From IMG/VR virus record IMGVR_UViG_3300017763_000161, positions 1-25,759 of that record: DNA of 25,759 nt; one strand, 5' to 3'. The translations under genes and the position numbers were made by a program. The notes below the pieces were generated by a model, which made no database searches, was not told the origin of the DNA, and saw nothing but the letters and a program-made list of their open reading frames with translations. Below, piece after piece: positions 6,523 to 21,641 of the stretch. The stretch comes from a virus. Within the stretch, counting starts at the first letter, position 1; each line of letters begins with the position of its first letter.

Positions 6523-6678
6523 ATGGAAACTTTGCTTAGAGGAACTGTGGGATCAACCGGGTTCTTTGCTTGTATTGGACTACAAAGCATAAACAGCGCA
6601 GTCAGTCTAGTTGTTGGTATAATGACTTTTGTATTCCTTGGACTTTCTATTTATAAGTTACTAAAGGATTTAAAATGA
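6523..6678 (+). CDS. 51-residue single-pass membrane protein
   Basis: A short frame from ATG 6523 (leader aaattttatattATG) to TGA 6676-6678 encodes 51 residues. A clear hydrophobic helix spans about residues 26-47 (AVSLVVGIMTFVFLGLSIY), and the tail is basic (KLLKDLK), predicting a C-terminus in the cytoplasm. A weaker hydrophobic stretch covers residues 12-22. The stop overlaps the ATG of the holin-like gene by four bases (ATGA), so the two are probably translated together. Size, topology and pairing suggest a lysis accessory such as a second holin, antiholin or pinholin, but this is inference. I do not recognise a named family. Confidence 0.6.
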   Translation: METLLRGTVGSTGFFACIGLQSINSAVSLVVGIMTFVFLGLSIYKLLKDLK

Positions 6679-7079
6679 CTACTGAACTCATAGCTATGCT
6701 GGGTGGTGGTGCGTCTGGGTTTTTGTTCAAGTTGATTGGTACAATGGTTACTGCTCAACAGAACAATGTAGCAAATTTATTAAAGAAACAAAAAGCGTCA
6801 GACGAAAGTGCTGACGCTGCTGCTAAGCGTACCGGGGACGGTGGAGCAATTGTAAGACGAATAATAGTAGTAACAGTTTTGTTTGGAGTAATTATAGCTC
6901 CCTTTATTTTAGCACACAGCGACGAGGGGGTAACAGTAGCAAACGAGTACAGTAAGTGGTTTGGGTTTGTAAAAGGCACAACCTACCAGACCTTGCACGG
7001 GTATGTTATACTACCAGAAATACGACAAACAGTTCTAGCTATAGTAGGTTTCTACTTTGGTTCATCATCAGTTAAATAA
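6675..7079 (+). CDS. Holin-like membrane protein (3-TM type)
   Basis: This 134-residue protein has a weak N-terminal hydrophobic segment (residues 7-26), a charged loop (KKQKASDESADAAAKRTGDG), a strong helix at about 62-80 (IIVVTVLFGVIIAPFILA) and a C-terminal one at 108-129, ending GFYFGSSSVK. The order and the FYFGS ending resemble the 'holin of 3 TMs' group found in gene-transfer-agent and phage lysis modules. Holins make inner-membrane lesions that trigger lysis. The gene is coupled by ATGA overlap to the small membrane protein upstream. The muralytic gene is not adjacent (1087-1635), so the lysis function is likely but not proved by context. Confidence 0.55.
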   Translation: MTTELIAMLGGGASGFLFKLIGTMVTAQQNNVANLLKKQKASDESADAAAKRTGDGGAIVRRIIVVTVLFGVIIAPFILAHSDEGVTVANEYSKWFGFVKGTTYQTLHGYVILPEIRQTVLAIVGFYFGSSSVK

Positions 7080-7080
7080 T

Positions 7081-7299
7081 ATGAAGAATTGTAATGTATG
7101 TAATAAACCCAAGAGCATTTGCTCTTGGTGTTCCCCTATCCAATGGATCACAAAAGCGCTCAACAAAAACTATCTGAACTCCGTGACAGTCTCGATAAAG
7201 TCCTTGGTGGCAAAGTCGAAGGCCCTAGTAGGGAGGACGCTGAAGAAGCTCTCAAGTCAGCTAAAGACGGTGCTAGGCGGGCTAAGAAAACGCTCCTAG
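7081..7299 (+). CDS. Cys-rich (zinc-knuckle-like) small ORF overlapping the next gene
   Basis: This 72-residue frame starts at ATG 7081, one base after the holin-like gene. Its first 17 residues contain C4-x2-C7-x6-C14-x2-C17 (CNVC then CSWC), the spacing of a small zinc knuckle. From residue 22 on it is basic (SLVAKSKALVGRTLKKL) and lies out of frame over the first 157 bases of the acidic protein gene (7143). Codon pattern in the overlap looks better in the other frame, so the basic tail may not be real. Options are a genuine overlapping gene, a short translated leader, or a -1 frameshift fusion placing the zinc knuckle on the acidic protein. I cannot separate these by eye. Confidence 0.4.
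   Translation: MKNCNVCNKPKSICSWCSPIQWITKALNKNYLNSVTVSIKSLVAKSKALVGRTLKKLSSQLKTVLGGLRKRS
7109..7128 (+). other. RNA hairpin upstream of the acidic-protein start
   Basis: An 8-bp perfect stem (CCAAGAGC at 7109-7116 and GCTCTTGG at 7121-7128) closes an ATTT loop. No U-tract follows, so it is not a standard terminator. It lies 14 bases upstream of ATG 7143 and inside the Cys-rich frame, where it encodes the second cysteine pair. It could modulate translation of the downstream gene. Confidence 0.45.
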
Positions 7300-7925
7300 G
7301 CAGAATCAAAGAGCTACCGGTAGTTGATAAGATAACACAACTTGGTGCTGCTGGAACTGTAGCGGTAAGCACAGCTGCGGTTACACAAACTAATATAGCA
7401 GTAGACGAGACCGAAGTATTTGTAGCCAGCGTAGCCAATGATGTGGTTCACGAAAGACTAAGATTCCCCCCAGTTATAAACAACTTCGTCGACTTTAGTG
7501 CGTTGGACTCCTGGGGTAGAGAAGTAATGAAAGAAAAGATTGCTGCGGTAAAAGATGAAGTGGCTAAGGTAGAAGCCAAGGTATCACCAGTAGAGGTAAA
7601 AGAAACTAAAGAGAAATCACAGTCCTCCGAAGAACCCAAGAGCCAAGAACCACAGGCCCAAGAAGAAAGTGCTGACAACACCAATGAAGACGCAGGAAGT
7701 GCAGAGGAAGCTAAACAAGATGTAGAAGAGGTTGAGAGTAAAGAGGCAGAAGAGGTTGAGGAGCTACAGGTTGAAGAGGTAGCAGAACCCGTGCCAGAGG
7801 AGAACATTGAAGAGATCGATGAAATTAAGCCTCACTCAGACGTAGATGATATCGAGCCAAAACAGCCATCAATACTACCAGAGGACTCAAGAGTAGTATC
7901 CCCAGAAGGAGCAAGACAAGTATGA
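7143..7925 (+). CDS. Acidic membrane-associated protein with long Glu-rich tail
   Basis: This 260-residue protein starts at ATG 7143; an in-frame TTG at 7119 is possible but less likely. The N-terminal 60 residues are a charged helical region (AQQKLSELRDSLDKVL). Residues 66-87 (LGAAGTVAVSTAAVTQTNIAV) are weakly hydrophobic and could cross or touch a membrane. Residues 105-145 contain RFPPVINNFVDFSALDSWG and a helix. From about 150 to the end the sequence is a Glu/Pro/Ser-rich disordered tail with many EVEE-type repeats. It might span the periplasm like a TonB- or spanin-type linker, or be a nucleic-acid mimic, but there is no recognised domain. It overlaps the next gene by four bases (ATGA), within a cassette of membrane proteins. 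Confidence 0.65.
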   Translation: MDHKSAQQKLSELRDSLDKVLGGKVEGPSREDAEEALKSAKDGARRAKKTLLGRIKELPVVDKITQLGAAGTVAVSTAAVTQTNIAVDETEVFVASVANDVVHERLRFPPVINNFVDFSALDSWGREVMKEKIAAVKDEVAKVEAKVSPVEVKETKEKSQSSEEPKSQEPQAQEESADNTNEDAGSAEEAKQDVEEVESKEAEEVEELQVEEVAEPVPEENIEEIDEIKPHSDVDDIEPKQPSILPEDSRVVSPEGARQV

Positions 7926-8086
7926 TACAATATATAGTCGAGAATTACAAAGAGAATCTACTAGGTATGTTATTTGCGTACATAGGAATATTTTCTATTG
8001 TAGTTATGTTTCTACCTAAAAATAATATTATATCCAGGGCCTTTAAAGAGTTCGCTTCAATATGCACATCCATCTTCAAAAAATAA
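7922..8086 (+). CDS. 54-residue single-pass membrane protein
   Basis: A short frame from ATG 7922 to TAA 8084-8086 encodes 54 residues. Residues 13-31 (LLGMLFAYIGIFSIVVMFL) form one hydrophobic helix after a short charged N-terminus (ENYKEN), followed by a basic tail (RAFKEF, IFKK). Basic residues after the helix predict the C-terminus inside. The start overlaps the acidic protein stop (ATGA) and the end overlaps the next gene by 25 bases, so it is tightly embedded in the cassette and likely translated. I do not recognise a family. A lysis or membrane-remodelling role is inferred from context. Confidence 0.6.
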   Translation: MIQYIVENYKENLLGMLFAYIGIFSIVVMFLPKNNIISRAFKEFASICTSIFKK

Positions 8087-8679
8087 AATTTTTATTTGCC
8101 CCGCTGTTATTCGCCTCCATAGCTTGGAGTGCTGTGCAGTTAAACAGCGTAGTGTATGATCTAGAAATAGAGATTGATGATACATATAGTGTACCTAACT
8201 TCAACCCAGAGGGTGGAGCAACGTACTACAATCCAATGGTATTTACTACTACTGTGGGCGGACAGTACATTTTTGAGAACTACGCAAGTAAACTAACAGG
8301 CGGAACTCAAGACACCTCTCTTCTAATATACGATAACCTGGATGCTAACTTTATAATTGATGAACCCTTTATATTTAATGACGGCCCTAGCATAGGTTTT
8401 GGAGGAGGACAGTTAAGTACCTTTGATCCCTACGAAAGGCACAGCGAGGCATTTAACGGTACTATAAGCCTATCAGCAAATAATACTTATGCTGCTGTAT
8501 TTTCATCTTTCTCACCAGACGCCATAGGAGTTATGCAAGTAAGGCTAACAGCACCAGGACAAATTTACAGTAATGATTTAGTTCCTATACCAGAGTTAAA
8601 AGATACTGGACTTTGGATAGCAATGATTATAGCTTTATTCGTAGCATTCAGTTACTTCAAAATAAGAAGTGACATATAA
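8062..8679 (+). CDS. Exported protein with PEP-CTERM-like C-terminal sorting signal
   Basis: This 205-residue protein has a signal peptide (residues 1-24: basic start HLQKIK, hydrophobic LFAPLLFASIAW, small residues before a likely cut near 24), a beta-rich body of about 145 residues, and a tripartite end. That end is VPIPE (174-178), a hydrophobic helix (about 183-198, LWIAMIIALFVAFSYF) and a basic patch (KIR). The body, with FTTTVGGQYIFENY, TSLLIYDNLDANF and NNTYAAVFSSFSP, resembles pre-peptidase C-terminal-like beta-sandwiches common in such surface proteins. PEP-CTERM proteins are normally host proteins processed by exosortase. The motif here is degenerate (PIPE rather than PEP), so a plain C-terminal anchor remains possible. 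It shares the cassette with holin-like and small membrane proteins. Confidence 0.6.
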   Translation: MHIHLQKIKFLFAPLLFASIAWSAVQLNSVVYDLEIEIDDTYSVPNFNPEGGATYYNPMVFTTTVGGQYIFENYASKLTGGTQDTSLLIYDNLDANFIIDEPFIFNDGPSIGFGGGQLSTFDPYERHSEAFNGTISLSANNTYAAVFSSFSPDAIGVMQVRLTAPGQIYSNDLVPIPELKDTGLWIAMIIALFVAFSYFKIRSDI

Positions 8680-8700
8680 CTATAAACAAAAGGATACATT

Positions 8701-8787
8701 ATGCCAAAAGGTAAAGGTACATACGGAACAACTAGAGGTCGCCCACCCAAGAAGGGAAAGATGGGAAAAAAGGGGAAGTGTAAATAA
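8701..8787 (+). CDS. 28-residue AT-hook-like basic peptide
   Basis: A very short frame, MPKGKGTYGTTRGRPPKKGK and then a Lys-rich end, contains RGRPP flanked by basic residues, the core of an AT-hook that inserts into the minor groove of A/T-rich DNA. It has one of the few good Shine-Dalgarno sequences here (AAAGGA at 8689-8694, six bases before ATG 8701), and its stop overlaps the next ATG by one base. Short peptides beginning MPKGKGTYG occur in other marine phages, to my recollection, without assigned function. DNA binding is inferred from the motif. Confidence 0.65.
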   Translation: MPKGKGTYGTTRGRPPKKGKMGKKGKCK

Positions 8788-18185: not shown

Positions 18186-21100
18186 ATGGTTCTGTCCAGA
18201 GAACAAGCCAGAGAACTTGAGCAACTTCAACTCAAGAAGAAAGCGTACGATGATTATGTGACCCGTGAGGCGTCGGAGGACGTTGGTATGGCTGTTGCTA
18301 AATCAAACGCTGGTCAAGAAACAAGTATAGGCGAAGACGTATCAGCCCTCGCGGCGGAAATAGCAATCTCCGAGGGGGGAAGGTTGGGAGGAGCTGCGGC
18401 TGGTACTGCTCTTCCAGTTCCACTTATAGGAACAGCTGCTGGATGGGTTATTGGTGGACTCGCTGGAGGAGCGTCTGGCGCTTACACTAGGCAAAAAATG
18501 CTAGGTCAAGAAATTGACTACGGTAACATTATTGCTTCCGCATTTATAAACATTATACCAGTACCCTCGGCTTTAAAAATGTTTAAAAACAAAACCTTAA
18601 ATACTGCTGTGTTCCAGGCTGGAGTAGGGGGAACATTGACCGGGGGAGAGGAAGTAATATCAACCATTATTAGTGAGGACAGACTTCCCACTACAGACGA
18701 ACTTCAGTCAGCTGGACTTCAAGGAGCAGCTTTGGGAGCTGGACTTGGAGCAGTTGGTTCAAAGTTAGAGGACGCATATAAAAAATTTGCTGGCGTAGGT
18801 AGAGAAGAATTTAACAACGCTCTTAGAATGGGCGACCCCGACGCAAAGATTTTAGTGGGTTCTGTAATGAAAAATGCTAGACGTCATCAAGATGATGTCA
18901 GAAAAAACTACTCCGACGTTAGGCTTGGAATAAAAGAAGCAACTATGGACGGAAGGGCCAGACTTCAAGAGTTACAAATGACTTCTGCTGGTGGACAGAT
19001 AAGATCCAAGAGAGGAATCTTTGAAGTTCTGGATGATGACGTTGACTACAATTTAAACTCTAGGCTCGCTGAAGTTTCTATAGCTGCTAAGAACGCAGAG
19101 GTTAAAGACATCTTTGATTTAGACGGACAGTTCCTTGTCAGCAAGGCTGACGAAATGGGTGTAGAGGCTACTGATCTTTCCCAACAAATTGATAAGTATC
19201 TGTACGCTAAACACGCAATACAGTTCAACAATGCAAAATCAAAAGGATACAAGGGCGAAGGGTCTCCAGCTGGCATTAGTAATAAGGACGCTGAGGACAT
19301 CATAAAAACATTCGAGGAATCCGGGCTTCATCAAGATTTAGATAAAGTCATTAAAAGTAGAGCTGATATGTCCAAGCAAATACTGGACACGCTCGAAGAT
19401 GGTGGAATAGTAAGTTCTAAGTACGCTGAATCCTTGCGCAAAAAGTTTCCAAACTACGTCCCATTAAATCGTGTGATGGACGACGGAGGACAGTTTAATC
19501 CTGGACTGTACACGGCTACTGGATCTGACCGATCTGTGAACGAGGTTTCATCAAACATTCTCGGTAACTTGTCATCAGCCATTAGGATGGCTGAGGTAAA
19601 CAAGGCTAACCAATCCTTCTTAAAACTTGTACAGAAACCAAAGAACAGAAAAGCGGCAAATAATGTTGTATCAGTATATCGTTCAAAGAATGTAAAGGAA
19701 GGATCAAAGCCCGGTGGTAAACCAGAAGTTCCAAAGAGCGTTGATAGGGATTCAGTAGTAACTGTCTTTGACAACGGCGTAAGAACATCAATGGCGTTCA
19801 AGGACAAGAGACTTGCTGCAGCTATGAAGGGTAGCAACAAGGCTGTTCTTCCTACATATATGAAGGCTGCTTTGTGGTACAACAGAACACTAGGAAGTCT
19901 TTATACTAGGTTTAATCCAGAGTTCGTTATACCCAATTTATTTAGGGACAGATCTGAAGCCATTGTAAATGCTTCAGCAAAGATGGACTTGGGTAACGCT
20001 CTTAAAGTAGTCAATCCAGTCAACGATATACGAACTATTCGTAGAAACATTCTAAATAAGAACAGAGTAGCCAGCAACCCAGAGGAAGCTAAGATGGACG
20101 CCCTTTACAAGCAGTTTGTTGAGGACGGAGGTAGCACAGGGAACTTAGGCGCTGCAACAGTAAGAGACCCAGAGGAAGCCATTAAGGCTCTTCAGAAAAC
20201 CCTACACAAACCAAGTTCTAGGACAACTTTTAGAAAGGGCCTTGATGCTCTTGAGAGAGTTAACTCCTACGTTGAGGACTCAACCAGGTTCAATGTTTAC
20301 CGACAAGGACTGAACAGCGGGATGACCCGTAAGCAAGCTGCGCTTGCTGCTCGTGACAGTTCGTTTGACCCGTTGGTAAAAGGATCACAAGGAGATGTGC
20401 TCCGGGCTACTTACTTGTTTGCTAATCCTTCAATACAAGGCGGAAGAAACTTTATTAGGTCAATGAGCAACCCAAGAATTGCCGGAGGAGTACTGGGTAC
20501 ATTAATGGCGACAACATATTCTCTTGATATGTACAACCAGAGTATTGATCCGGACTGGAAAGAAAAGCTAAGAGCCAAAGATGGAAGCACCTGGAAGACA
20601 GACAAGACCCTAACTTTAGTTACTGGAGTAAAAGAGAACGGAGACTTGTCTTACATTCAAGTTCCCATCGGTTACTCCATTGCTCCAGTTAAAAAGACCG
20701 CTGACTATCTTCAGCAAAAAGTTATTCAACAAGGTCTAATGGGCATAGATCCATCTCAAGTAGAGATGGACAAGACCAAGACTGAAAAAATAGGAGAGTT
20801 AACTAAGGCTTTCATAGACGGATATAACCCAATGGGTGGGTCTATAGTTCCAACTCCATTGCGTCCTTGGTCTGAACTTGTTCGCAATAAGGACGGTCTC
20901 GGAAGAGACATTCGTCCGTCTTGGTTAGAAACCAAGAACATTAGCGAAGTAGAAAAAGTATTTCCTTGGACGATGGACACTCGTGGAGGAGAAATGGCAA
21001 TCTCTTTTGCGGAGCAGTTAGAGAATATGGGGATGGAAGTTTCCCCAGAAAACCTAGAGTACTTGTACCAGACTTGGGTTGGTGGCCCCGGTAACACAGT

Positions 21101-21641
21101 AAGAAGATTGTTTGAGTTTACTTCAAGGGTTATAAATAAAGAACCTTTGAAGGCAAAAGAATTGCCAATTGCTAGAAGATTCTTTGGGGAAAGTCCAATG
21201 AAAACTTTTGAGGCTCGCAACTACGACACGGAGCTACTTGAAAACTTGGATAAATTGTACTTAACCAATCGTCAAAAAGGAATCAGAATAGCAACAAGTG
21301 CCTTCAAGAAAATGGAAAGTAGAAATACTCCAGAAGAAAAAAGGTTAGTGCTTCGTGACGCTATATCGGAAGTAAAAGATCCTTACTTAATGCAGTCCAT
21401 ACTAAATTCAGTATCAAACAAATTTTCTGATAAACGCCTTGGAATTACCGGGGCAGACAAGGGCTTAAAGAACAAGTCGTCAATGGTAAAAGCTGAGTAC
21501 ATTATGAACAGAGTTGAAGATATGAGTCCAGAAATCGTTGGAGATTATTTGAAGACTATGCAGCAAAGAAAAATACTTACTCCAAGTGTCATTAAACTAA
21601 TTGGAGAACTCCGAGCAATAAAGGAGATGTCAAAGCAGTAG
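18186..21641 (+). CDS. Large internal (ejected) virion protein, LPD38-like
   Basis: At 1151 residues this is the largest protein here. Residues ~58-100 form a Gly/Ala-rich hydrophobic zipper (GRLGGAAAGTALPVPLIG, AAGWVIGGLAGGASGAY), able to insert in membrane during DNA ejection. From residue ~554 the sequence LPTYMKAALWYNRTLGSLYT, then RFNPEFVIPNLFRD, and later LAARDSSFDPLVKGSQ and TYLFANPSIQGGRNFIRSM resemble the large polyvalent protein-associated domain 38 found in phage ejected proteins. The C-terminal third is helical and charged (AISEVKDPYLMQSIL). It closes the structural block, ending with a 12-base overlap with a convergent gene. No polymerase or protease motif is evident. A T7 gp16-like channel role is the most likely, from position and size. 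Confidence 0.7.
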   Translation: MVLSREQARELEQLQLKKKAYDDYVTREASEDVGMAVAKSNAGQETSIGEDVSALAAEIAISEGGRLGGAAAGTALPVPLIGTAAGWVIGGLAGGASGAYTRQKMLGQEIDYGNIIASAFINIIPVPSALKMFKNKTLNTAVFQAGVGGTLTGGEEVISTIISEDRLPTTDELQSAGLQGAALGAGLGAVGSKLEDAYKKFAGVGREEFNNALRMGDPDAKILVGSVMKNARRHQDDVRKNYSDVRLGIKEATMDGRARLQELQMTSAGGQIRSKRGIFEVLDDDVDYNLNSRLAEVSIAAKNAEVKDIFDLDGQFLVSKADEMGVEATDLSQQIDKYLYAKHAIQFNNAKSKGYKGEGSPAGISNKDAEDIIKTFEESGLHQDLDKVIKSRADMSKQILDTLEDGGIVSSKYAESLRKKFPNYVPLNRVMDDGGQFNPGLYTATGSDRSVNEVSSNILGNLSSAIRMAEVNKANQSFLKLVQKPKNRKAANNVVSVYRSKNVKEGSKPGGKPEVPKSVDRDSVVTVFDNGVRTSMAFKDKRLAAAMKGSNKAVLPTYMKAALWYNRTLGSLYTRFNPEFVIPNLFRDRSEAIVNASAKMDLGNALKVVNPVNDIRTIRRNILNKNRVASNPEEAKMDALYKQFVEDGGSTGNLGAATVRDPEEAIKALQKTLHKPSSRTTFRKGLDALERVNSYVEDSTRFNVYRQGLNSGMTRKQAALAARDSSFDPLVKGSQGDVLRATYLFANPSIQGGRNFIRSMSNPRIAGGVLGTLMATTYSLDMYNQSIDPDWKEKLRAKDGSTWKTDKTLTLVTGVKENGDLSYIQVPIGYSIAPVKKTADYLQQKVIQQGLMGIDPSQVEMDKTKTEKIGELTKAFIDGYNPMGGSIVPTPLRPWSELVRNKDGLGRDIRPSWLETKNISEVEKVFPWTMDTRGGEMAISFAEQLENMGMEVSPENLEYLYQTWVGGPGNTVRRLFEFTSRVINKEPLKAKELPIARRFFGESPMKTFEARNYDTELLENLDKLYLTNRQKGIRIATSAFKKMESRNTPEEKRLVLRDAISEVKDPYLMQSILNSVSNKFSDKRLGITGADKGLKNKSSMVKAEYIMNRVEDMSPEIVGDYLKTMQQRKILTPSVIKLIGELRAIKEMSKQ

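Follow-up and report, generated by a model that had tools for sequence, protein, structure and literature searches.

The window, that is, the whole stretch of DNA analysed here, comprises the 25,759 bases of one IMG/VR virus record, and the gene under study, c12, lies inside its structural (late) block as the last member of a three-gene cassette (c0, c11 and c12). The features of the locus are collected in Table 1.

Table 1. Genes and features at the c12 locus (positions in the window)
Feature	Position	Strand	Description	Source or remark
c9	6523..6678	+	51-aa membrane protein	counterpart of P8625 gp27
c10	6675..7079	+	134-aa membrane protein, phrog_38283	homologous to verrucophage P8625 gp28; holin-like by position only
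Small CxxC...CxxC basic protein	7081..7299	+	72 aa	overlaps c0 start in another frame; kept by close relatives
c0	7143..7925	+	260-aa acidic protein	
c11	7922..8086	+	54-aa single-span membrane protein, basic C-terminus	the PEP-tail gene always follows immediately
c12	8062..8679	+	205 aa, ATG start	ORF list, 30-sequence alignment A8, AlphaFold2, dN/dS
Signal-peptide-like N-terminus of c12	8062..8130	+	residues 1-23, putative cleavage after A-W-S, before A	sequence inspection
Beta-sandwich (jelly-roll-like) body of c12, predicted	8149..8553	+	residues 30-164	AlphaFold2, Foldseek
Recombined tail module, putative	8575..8720	+		identity profiles vs G002 and L011; dS contrast
Tail of c12	8581..8676	+	residues 174-205: V-P-I-P-E-L-K-D-T-G, membrane helix, K-I-R-S-D-I	
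I-P-E core of motif	8587..8595	+	residues 176-178	every body type keeps P-E unchanged (A8, A7 columns)

The c12 frame is a real gene, since it is under strong purifying selection along its full length (dN/dS approximately 0.08-0.13, n = 8 pairs, or around 0.1) and 26 close relatives are colinear with its locus. Its product runs from a signal-peptide-like start through a predicted beta-sandwich to a C-terminal tail (VPIPELKDTGLWIAMIIALFVAFSYFKIRS). The first 23 residues (MHIHLQKIKFLFAPLLFASIAWS) show by inspection an A-W-S/G cleavage pattern, and both the n-region lysines and A-W-S or A-W-G are conserved across the 205-residue forms in alignment A8; an N-terminal signal peptide is plausible in these forms. 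From the 30 aligned sequences AlphaFold2 predicted an N-terminal helix, a beta-sandwich at residues 30-164 and a C-terminal helix at residues 182-204, with a mean pLDDT of 72 and core strands mostly at 76-88. A Foldseek search of the PDB with this model gave Tk-SP as top match (E = 2.4e-3, probability 1.00), with other matches to CBM35, p24 GOLD, the C-terminal domain of C. perfringens enterotoxin and Aeromonas PliG; all of these matches, Tk-SP included, are beta-sandwich domains at E = 0.002-0.03. The modelled fold is a generic jelly-roll/beta-sandwich that resembles many such domains but none of them significantly, and its PDB matches point to no function. One viral model was matched at E = 4e-8 in the fold search, and a sequence search against the PDB returned no match. 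PHROGs gave no usable match, and weak Pfam matches to PTS_EIIC, Ski2, BppU-like and TMEM107 were judged to be noise. Homologues of the body were not found in a pattern-limited search of 85,000 species genomes, in 384 genomes of the class of the Opitutae MAG discussed below, in the order of a Sneathiella MAG, or among annotated phages. The preliminary description had proposed this layout (a signal-peptide-like start, a beta-sandwich, and a tail of VPIPE, hydrophobic helix and KIR) together with the late-block location, and had suggested a structure prediction; inspection and the AlphaFold2 model, with its beta-sandwich body and C-terminal helix, agree with it. Its simple term "surface protein" leaves unexplained the bodies of many relatives that lack a signal peptide.

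c12 had initially been viewed as a single protein; the unit is instead the cassette c0-c11-c12, which was found with a PEP-tail gene in third place in more than 80 viral contigs, and relatives of c11 were detected in at least 92. The genes are tightly packed: the c0 stop and the c11 start overlap by 4 nt, the 3' end of c11 overlaps c12 by 25 nt, and the start-to-start distance from c11 to c12 is exactly 140 bases in close relatives. c0 consists of an N-terminal charged helix, a weakly hydrophobic segment, a disordered acidic linker and a conserved C-terminal motif. In the window and in contigs L170-L218 this motif, placed after the long disordered linker, reads roughly ETPF..., KPHS..., VSP. 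The small CxxC...CxxC frame and c0 overlap by approximately 157 bases and are likely an overlapping gene pair. The order c9, c10, small overlapping gene, c0, c11, c12 is present in every close relative with enough flanking sequence, and divergence of the capsid and tail genes leaves this order unchanged. In four further contigs (L181, L183, L194 and L201) the phage backbone is a different one, in which the cassette is flanked by portal and capsid genes and c10 is absent from the neighbourhood; the cassette therefore moves between phage lineages. Phages P8625 and C75C1 contain c10 homologues, and the cassette was not detected in either of them; neither c0 nor c11 nor the short protein described below had a relative in annotated phage records. 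Elsewhere in the window, a protein with a phage tail lysozyme domain (PF18013, E = 6.8e-9) is encoded at 814-1635, its annotated start lying within the 3' end of the portal gene; no other muralytic candidate was found in the window. A 1151-residue late protein (18186-21641) shares approximately 23% identity with large Vibrio, Burkholderia and Stx phage proteins, and its relatives include ones annotated as DarB-like or LPD5.

In the full tail of window c12 (VPIPELKDTGLWIAMIIALFVAFSYFKIRSDI), the motif is immediately followed by the membrane helix, which forms the very C-terminal part of the protein (hydropathy maximum 2.0, residues 183-201). The motif reads P-E-L rather than the near-invariant Pro-Glu-Pro of PEP-CTERM (TIGR02595/PF07589), the usual Arg cluster and glycines are lacking, and the basic residues after the helix are limited to K-I-R, with KRRK or RRK in several relatives. 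Scans of NCBIfam, Pfam and PHROGs gave no PEP-CTERM (TIGR02595/PF07589) match for the window protein or its 205-residue relatives, and no NCBIfam C-terminal sorting-signal model matched any of the 26 members of A2 (205-residue forms) at E ≤ 10. Choice-of-anchor R (NF041539) matched one member of the 205-residue type at residues 132-161, below threshold (18.4 bits against a cut-off of 30). With an HMM purpose-built from 42 PEP-CTERM tails of Opitutae genomes, window-type tails scored between -2 and 4 bits and did not outperform shuffled sequences. The preliminary description had rightly called the motif degenerate; the model match of the protein itself that it had named as support was not obtained from NCBIfam, Pfam or the Opitutae tail HMM, and formal PEP-CTERM membership is not claimed for the window copy. 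On the window and its close relatives alone the PEP-CTERM reading would have been rejected; a search anchored on c11 reversed this judgement.

Using c11 as bait and inspecting the next gene downstream in more distant viral contigs, we found approximately 45 contigs in which the c12 position holds an unrelated short protein with a PEP-CTERM-type tail. These proteins are acidic, approximately 65-111 residues long and devoid of a visible signal peptide, and their genes overlap the c11 stop by 4 bases; examples of their tails are IPEPSTYVLFAGFAVLLYTLIKRRK (L211), VPEPSFYGLALGFTLLFVAMIKRRK (L204) and IPEPADAGFVGAILVAIFVAFTYFKTRTNK (L199). TIGR02595 matches 11 of 24 short proteins, with L211 above the cut-off (17.5 versus 16), and PF07589 matches eleven, with L216 at the cut-off (20.7 versus 20.7). 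Against the profile of the 42 Opitutae tails, the L211 tail reaches 33.5 bits, the profile's own members scoring at least 38. Two proteins of 205 and 207 residues (L208 and L210), approximately 40% identical to window c12, carry IPEPKDAGFVIALIVATFVAFSYF or a close variant, and such tails on window-type bodies link the two tail styles. Among the family members of the window tail are PEP-CTERM tails that satisfy curated cut-offs (L211 and L216), and relatives at the same locus thus provide the canonical VPEP-type evidence that had been looked for at the outset.

Comparison of all tails revealed a fixed motif and an exchangeable helix. Pro-Glu occupies the homologous position in 51 of 51 distinct tails and Pro-Glu-Pro in 29 of them; the close relatives (205-residue forms) have IPEP, IPEL or IPEM, with I-P-E invariant. 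The aligned bodies of L188 and L182 are identical (72/72) and share 37% identity after the PEP motif, and those of L187 and L195 are 96% identical, with 18% identity in the sequence after the motif. A similar discontinuity is found in the window: the body (8121-8540) has 85-93% identity to L011 versus 62-82% to G002, and positions 8601-8660 have 98% identity to G002 versus 75% to L011, the similarity to G002 decaying beyond approximately 8720. Between the window and L013 (the G002 counterpart), dS is 0.16 in the tail and 3.2 in the body. Judged from these comparisons, the tail is a swappable module, and the window sequence shows one of the swap junctions; normal mosaicism of phage genomes could account for the swapping.

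When the window was searched with a profile of the short tails, the c12 frame ranked first (E = 7.3e-5; next frame 0.31), and among the 5,149 open frames of the other fetched phages the matches at E ≤ 1 were c12-position genes only. In the same phage set, the Opitutae profile gave only one strong match, the L211-type gene (contig G461). Profile-profile scores against the Opitutae tails were compared with a null of 60 full-column and 60 motif-only permutations: window-type tails scored 21.6 (permutation maxima 11.8 and 15.3, respectively) and short tails 50.4 (13.0 and 36.4). Because Pro-Glu is present in every distinct tail, c12 takes the top rank with the short-tail profile and the profile score lies above all permutations, the likeness of the window tail is, on sequence grounds, more than chance. 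The same observations bear on the possibility that the tail is a plain C-terminal membrane anchor, which would tether the body with no exosortase involved, Pro-Glu serving as a helix cap or as a contact to c11. Such an anchor would account for the missing PEP-CTERM model match of the window protein and the weak score of its tail against host-derived tails, and it suits a host that is probable rather than certain; however, it accounts poorly for a Pro-Glu retained across unrelated bodies and swapped helices, for relatives that pass curated PEP-CTERM cut-offs, and for a profile match exceeding even the motif-only permutations. We therefore regard a plain anchor as possible, if somewhat unlikely.

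With regard to the host, c10 shares 51% identity with gp28 of verrucophage P8625, which was isolated on the marine Opitutae strain IMCC8625, and c9 is matched by P8625 gp27. An Opitutae MAG (G019) includes one phage contig with a capsid protein 71-72% identical to the major capsid protein of the window and another, P8625-like phage contig with c9-c10. Two exosortases and 17 PEP-CTERM matches were found in this MAG, and among the sampled genomes of its family (marine Opitutae) exosortase was present in 41 of 41 and PEP-CTERM proteins in 39 of 41. Most of these genomes have two exosortases, one of them weaker-scoring, and a separate type of tail may belong to the second. Three alphaproteobacterial MAGs also contain short c10-bearing phage contigs, one of them with a 67% identical capsid protein, and only one of the three MAGs has an exosortase. 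c11 was not found in the 384 genomes of the class of G019, no tRNA genes that could hint at a host were found, and the name of the closest phage, C75C1, provides no host clue. Since phage contigs in MAGs can be misbinned, an Opitutae host is likely rather than shown, and we infer that marine Opitutae are quite probably the host group. The evidence thus leans toward the exosortase-bearing verrucomicrobial host at which the tail had been thought to hint. No exosortase was detected in 18 phage contigs of this group, and any processing of the tail would therefore depend on the host.

The explanation we prefer, and to which we give moderate credence, is that c12 is the third product of a late cassette and bears a diverged PEP-CTERM-type sorting tail that engages the host exosortase. 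The signal peptide would direct the beta-sandwich body across the inner membrane, and the tail helix would keep it in that membrane, the basic end facing inward and Pro-Glu lying on the periplasmic side next to the active site of the exosortase, as the published PEP-CTERM/EpsH model implies (PMC1569441). The host exosortase would then recognise the tail and either cut it and pass the body to the cell surface or stay occupied by it; sequence cannot separate display from interference. Because body and helix are exchangeable and Pro-Glu is not, the constant task appears, in the most economical view, to be engaging the sorting enzyme. Superinfection exclusion, receptor masking and envelope weakening, the roles offered in the preliminary description, are not supported as stated. 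Several findings count against the preferred reading, namely the P-E-L motif, the missing Arg cluster and glycines and the shuffle-level Opitutae HMM score of the window tail, the inferred host, the alphaproteobacterial c10 contigs, and the absence of c11 from the 384 class genomes. In addition, the short-body relatives need insertion of their N-tail to put Pro-Glu outside: their basic C-terminus predicts the same orientation as in the 205-residue form, and an acidic N-tail of approximately 40-80 residues would have to cross the membrane without a signal peptide, which is the weakest step.

That step keeps alive an unlikely variant in which the cassette targets the host exosortase as a decoy, the PEP-type tail doing the work and the short, signal-peptide-free forms occupying the enzyme. 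If this were true, surface-protein and exopolysaccharide-linked sorting would be shut down during infection, and these proteins would be the first exosortase antagonists. It is quite unlikely that an exported, anchored c12 helps to breach the envelope at the end of infection in a spanin-like manner, together with c0, c11 and the holin-like c9-c10. The proximity of c9-c10 to the cassette in most contigs and the putative N-terminal export signal plus C-terminal membrane helix, which resemble the layout of a unimolecular spanin, speak for this role, but the N-terminal 30 residues of A8 contain no cysteine and hence no lipobox cysteine, the short-body versions lack an export signal, some phages have the cassette flanked by portal and capsid genes, away from c10, and P8625 and C75C1 have c10 homologues with no cassette detected. 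A virion or DNA-ejection component, in which c0, c11 and c12 would travel in the particle and enter the host membrane as infection begins, would fit a cassette always within the structural block and its small membrane proteins and long disordered linker, but is very improbable given a signal-peptide-like start unusual in a packaged protein and the failure to match any known ejection protein.

Bacteria are already known to have PEP-CTERM tails and exosortases; no description of a phage-encoded PEP-CTERM-type tail was found in the openly accessible papers searched. The present data suggest that these marine phages, which probably infect verrucomicrobia, exploit or block a host surface-sorting enzyme that they themselves do not encode. 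The preferred reading of c12 as an exosortase-engaging protein would mean that phages of exosortase-bearing bacteria have one more factor of host dependence; it would also offer a marker in the genomes of uncultured marine phages that points to their likely hosts, and supply candidate tools to inhibit or track exosortase, while the retention of Pro-Glu with body and helix exchanged amounts to a natural experiment on exosortase recognition.

Compared with the bacterial PEP-CTERM/exosortase system (EpsH/XrtA), the proteins described here share the C-terminal Pro-Glu, the single membrane helix, the basic end and the highly diverse bodies; some same-locus relatives pass curated cut-offs, and their tails are close to those of Opitutae hosts. 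They differ in being phage-encoded, at one copy per phage, and fixed in a three-gene late cassette, in the P-E-L motif without an Arg cluster in the window copy, and in the lack of a signal peptide in many phage relatives, such a peptide being reported in 97% of bacterial PEP-CTERM proteins (PMC1569441). Unimolecular spanins of the T1 gp11 type combine an N-terminal export signal with a C-terminal membrane helix, as c12 plausibly does, whereas c12 has no lipobox cysteine and its cassette also occurs away from holin-like genes. Llp of phage T5 is a phage surface-blocking protein and, as proposed for c12, a late phage protein in the host envelope; unlike it, c12 has no lipoprotein signal, and c12 is conserved while tail genes diverge. 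Finally, phages of Gram-positive bacteria encode sortase-anchored (LPXTG) surface proteins, which offer an analogy as phage proteins that bear a C-terminal sorting tail of host type; they differ in motif, in the class of enzyme and in the type of envelope, and the cassette described here retains its tail motif through exchanges of the body.
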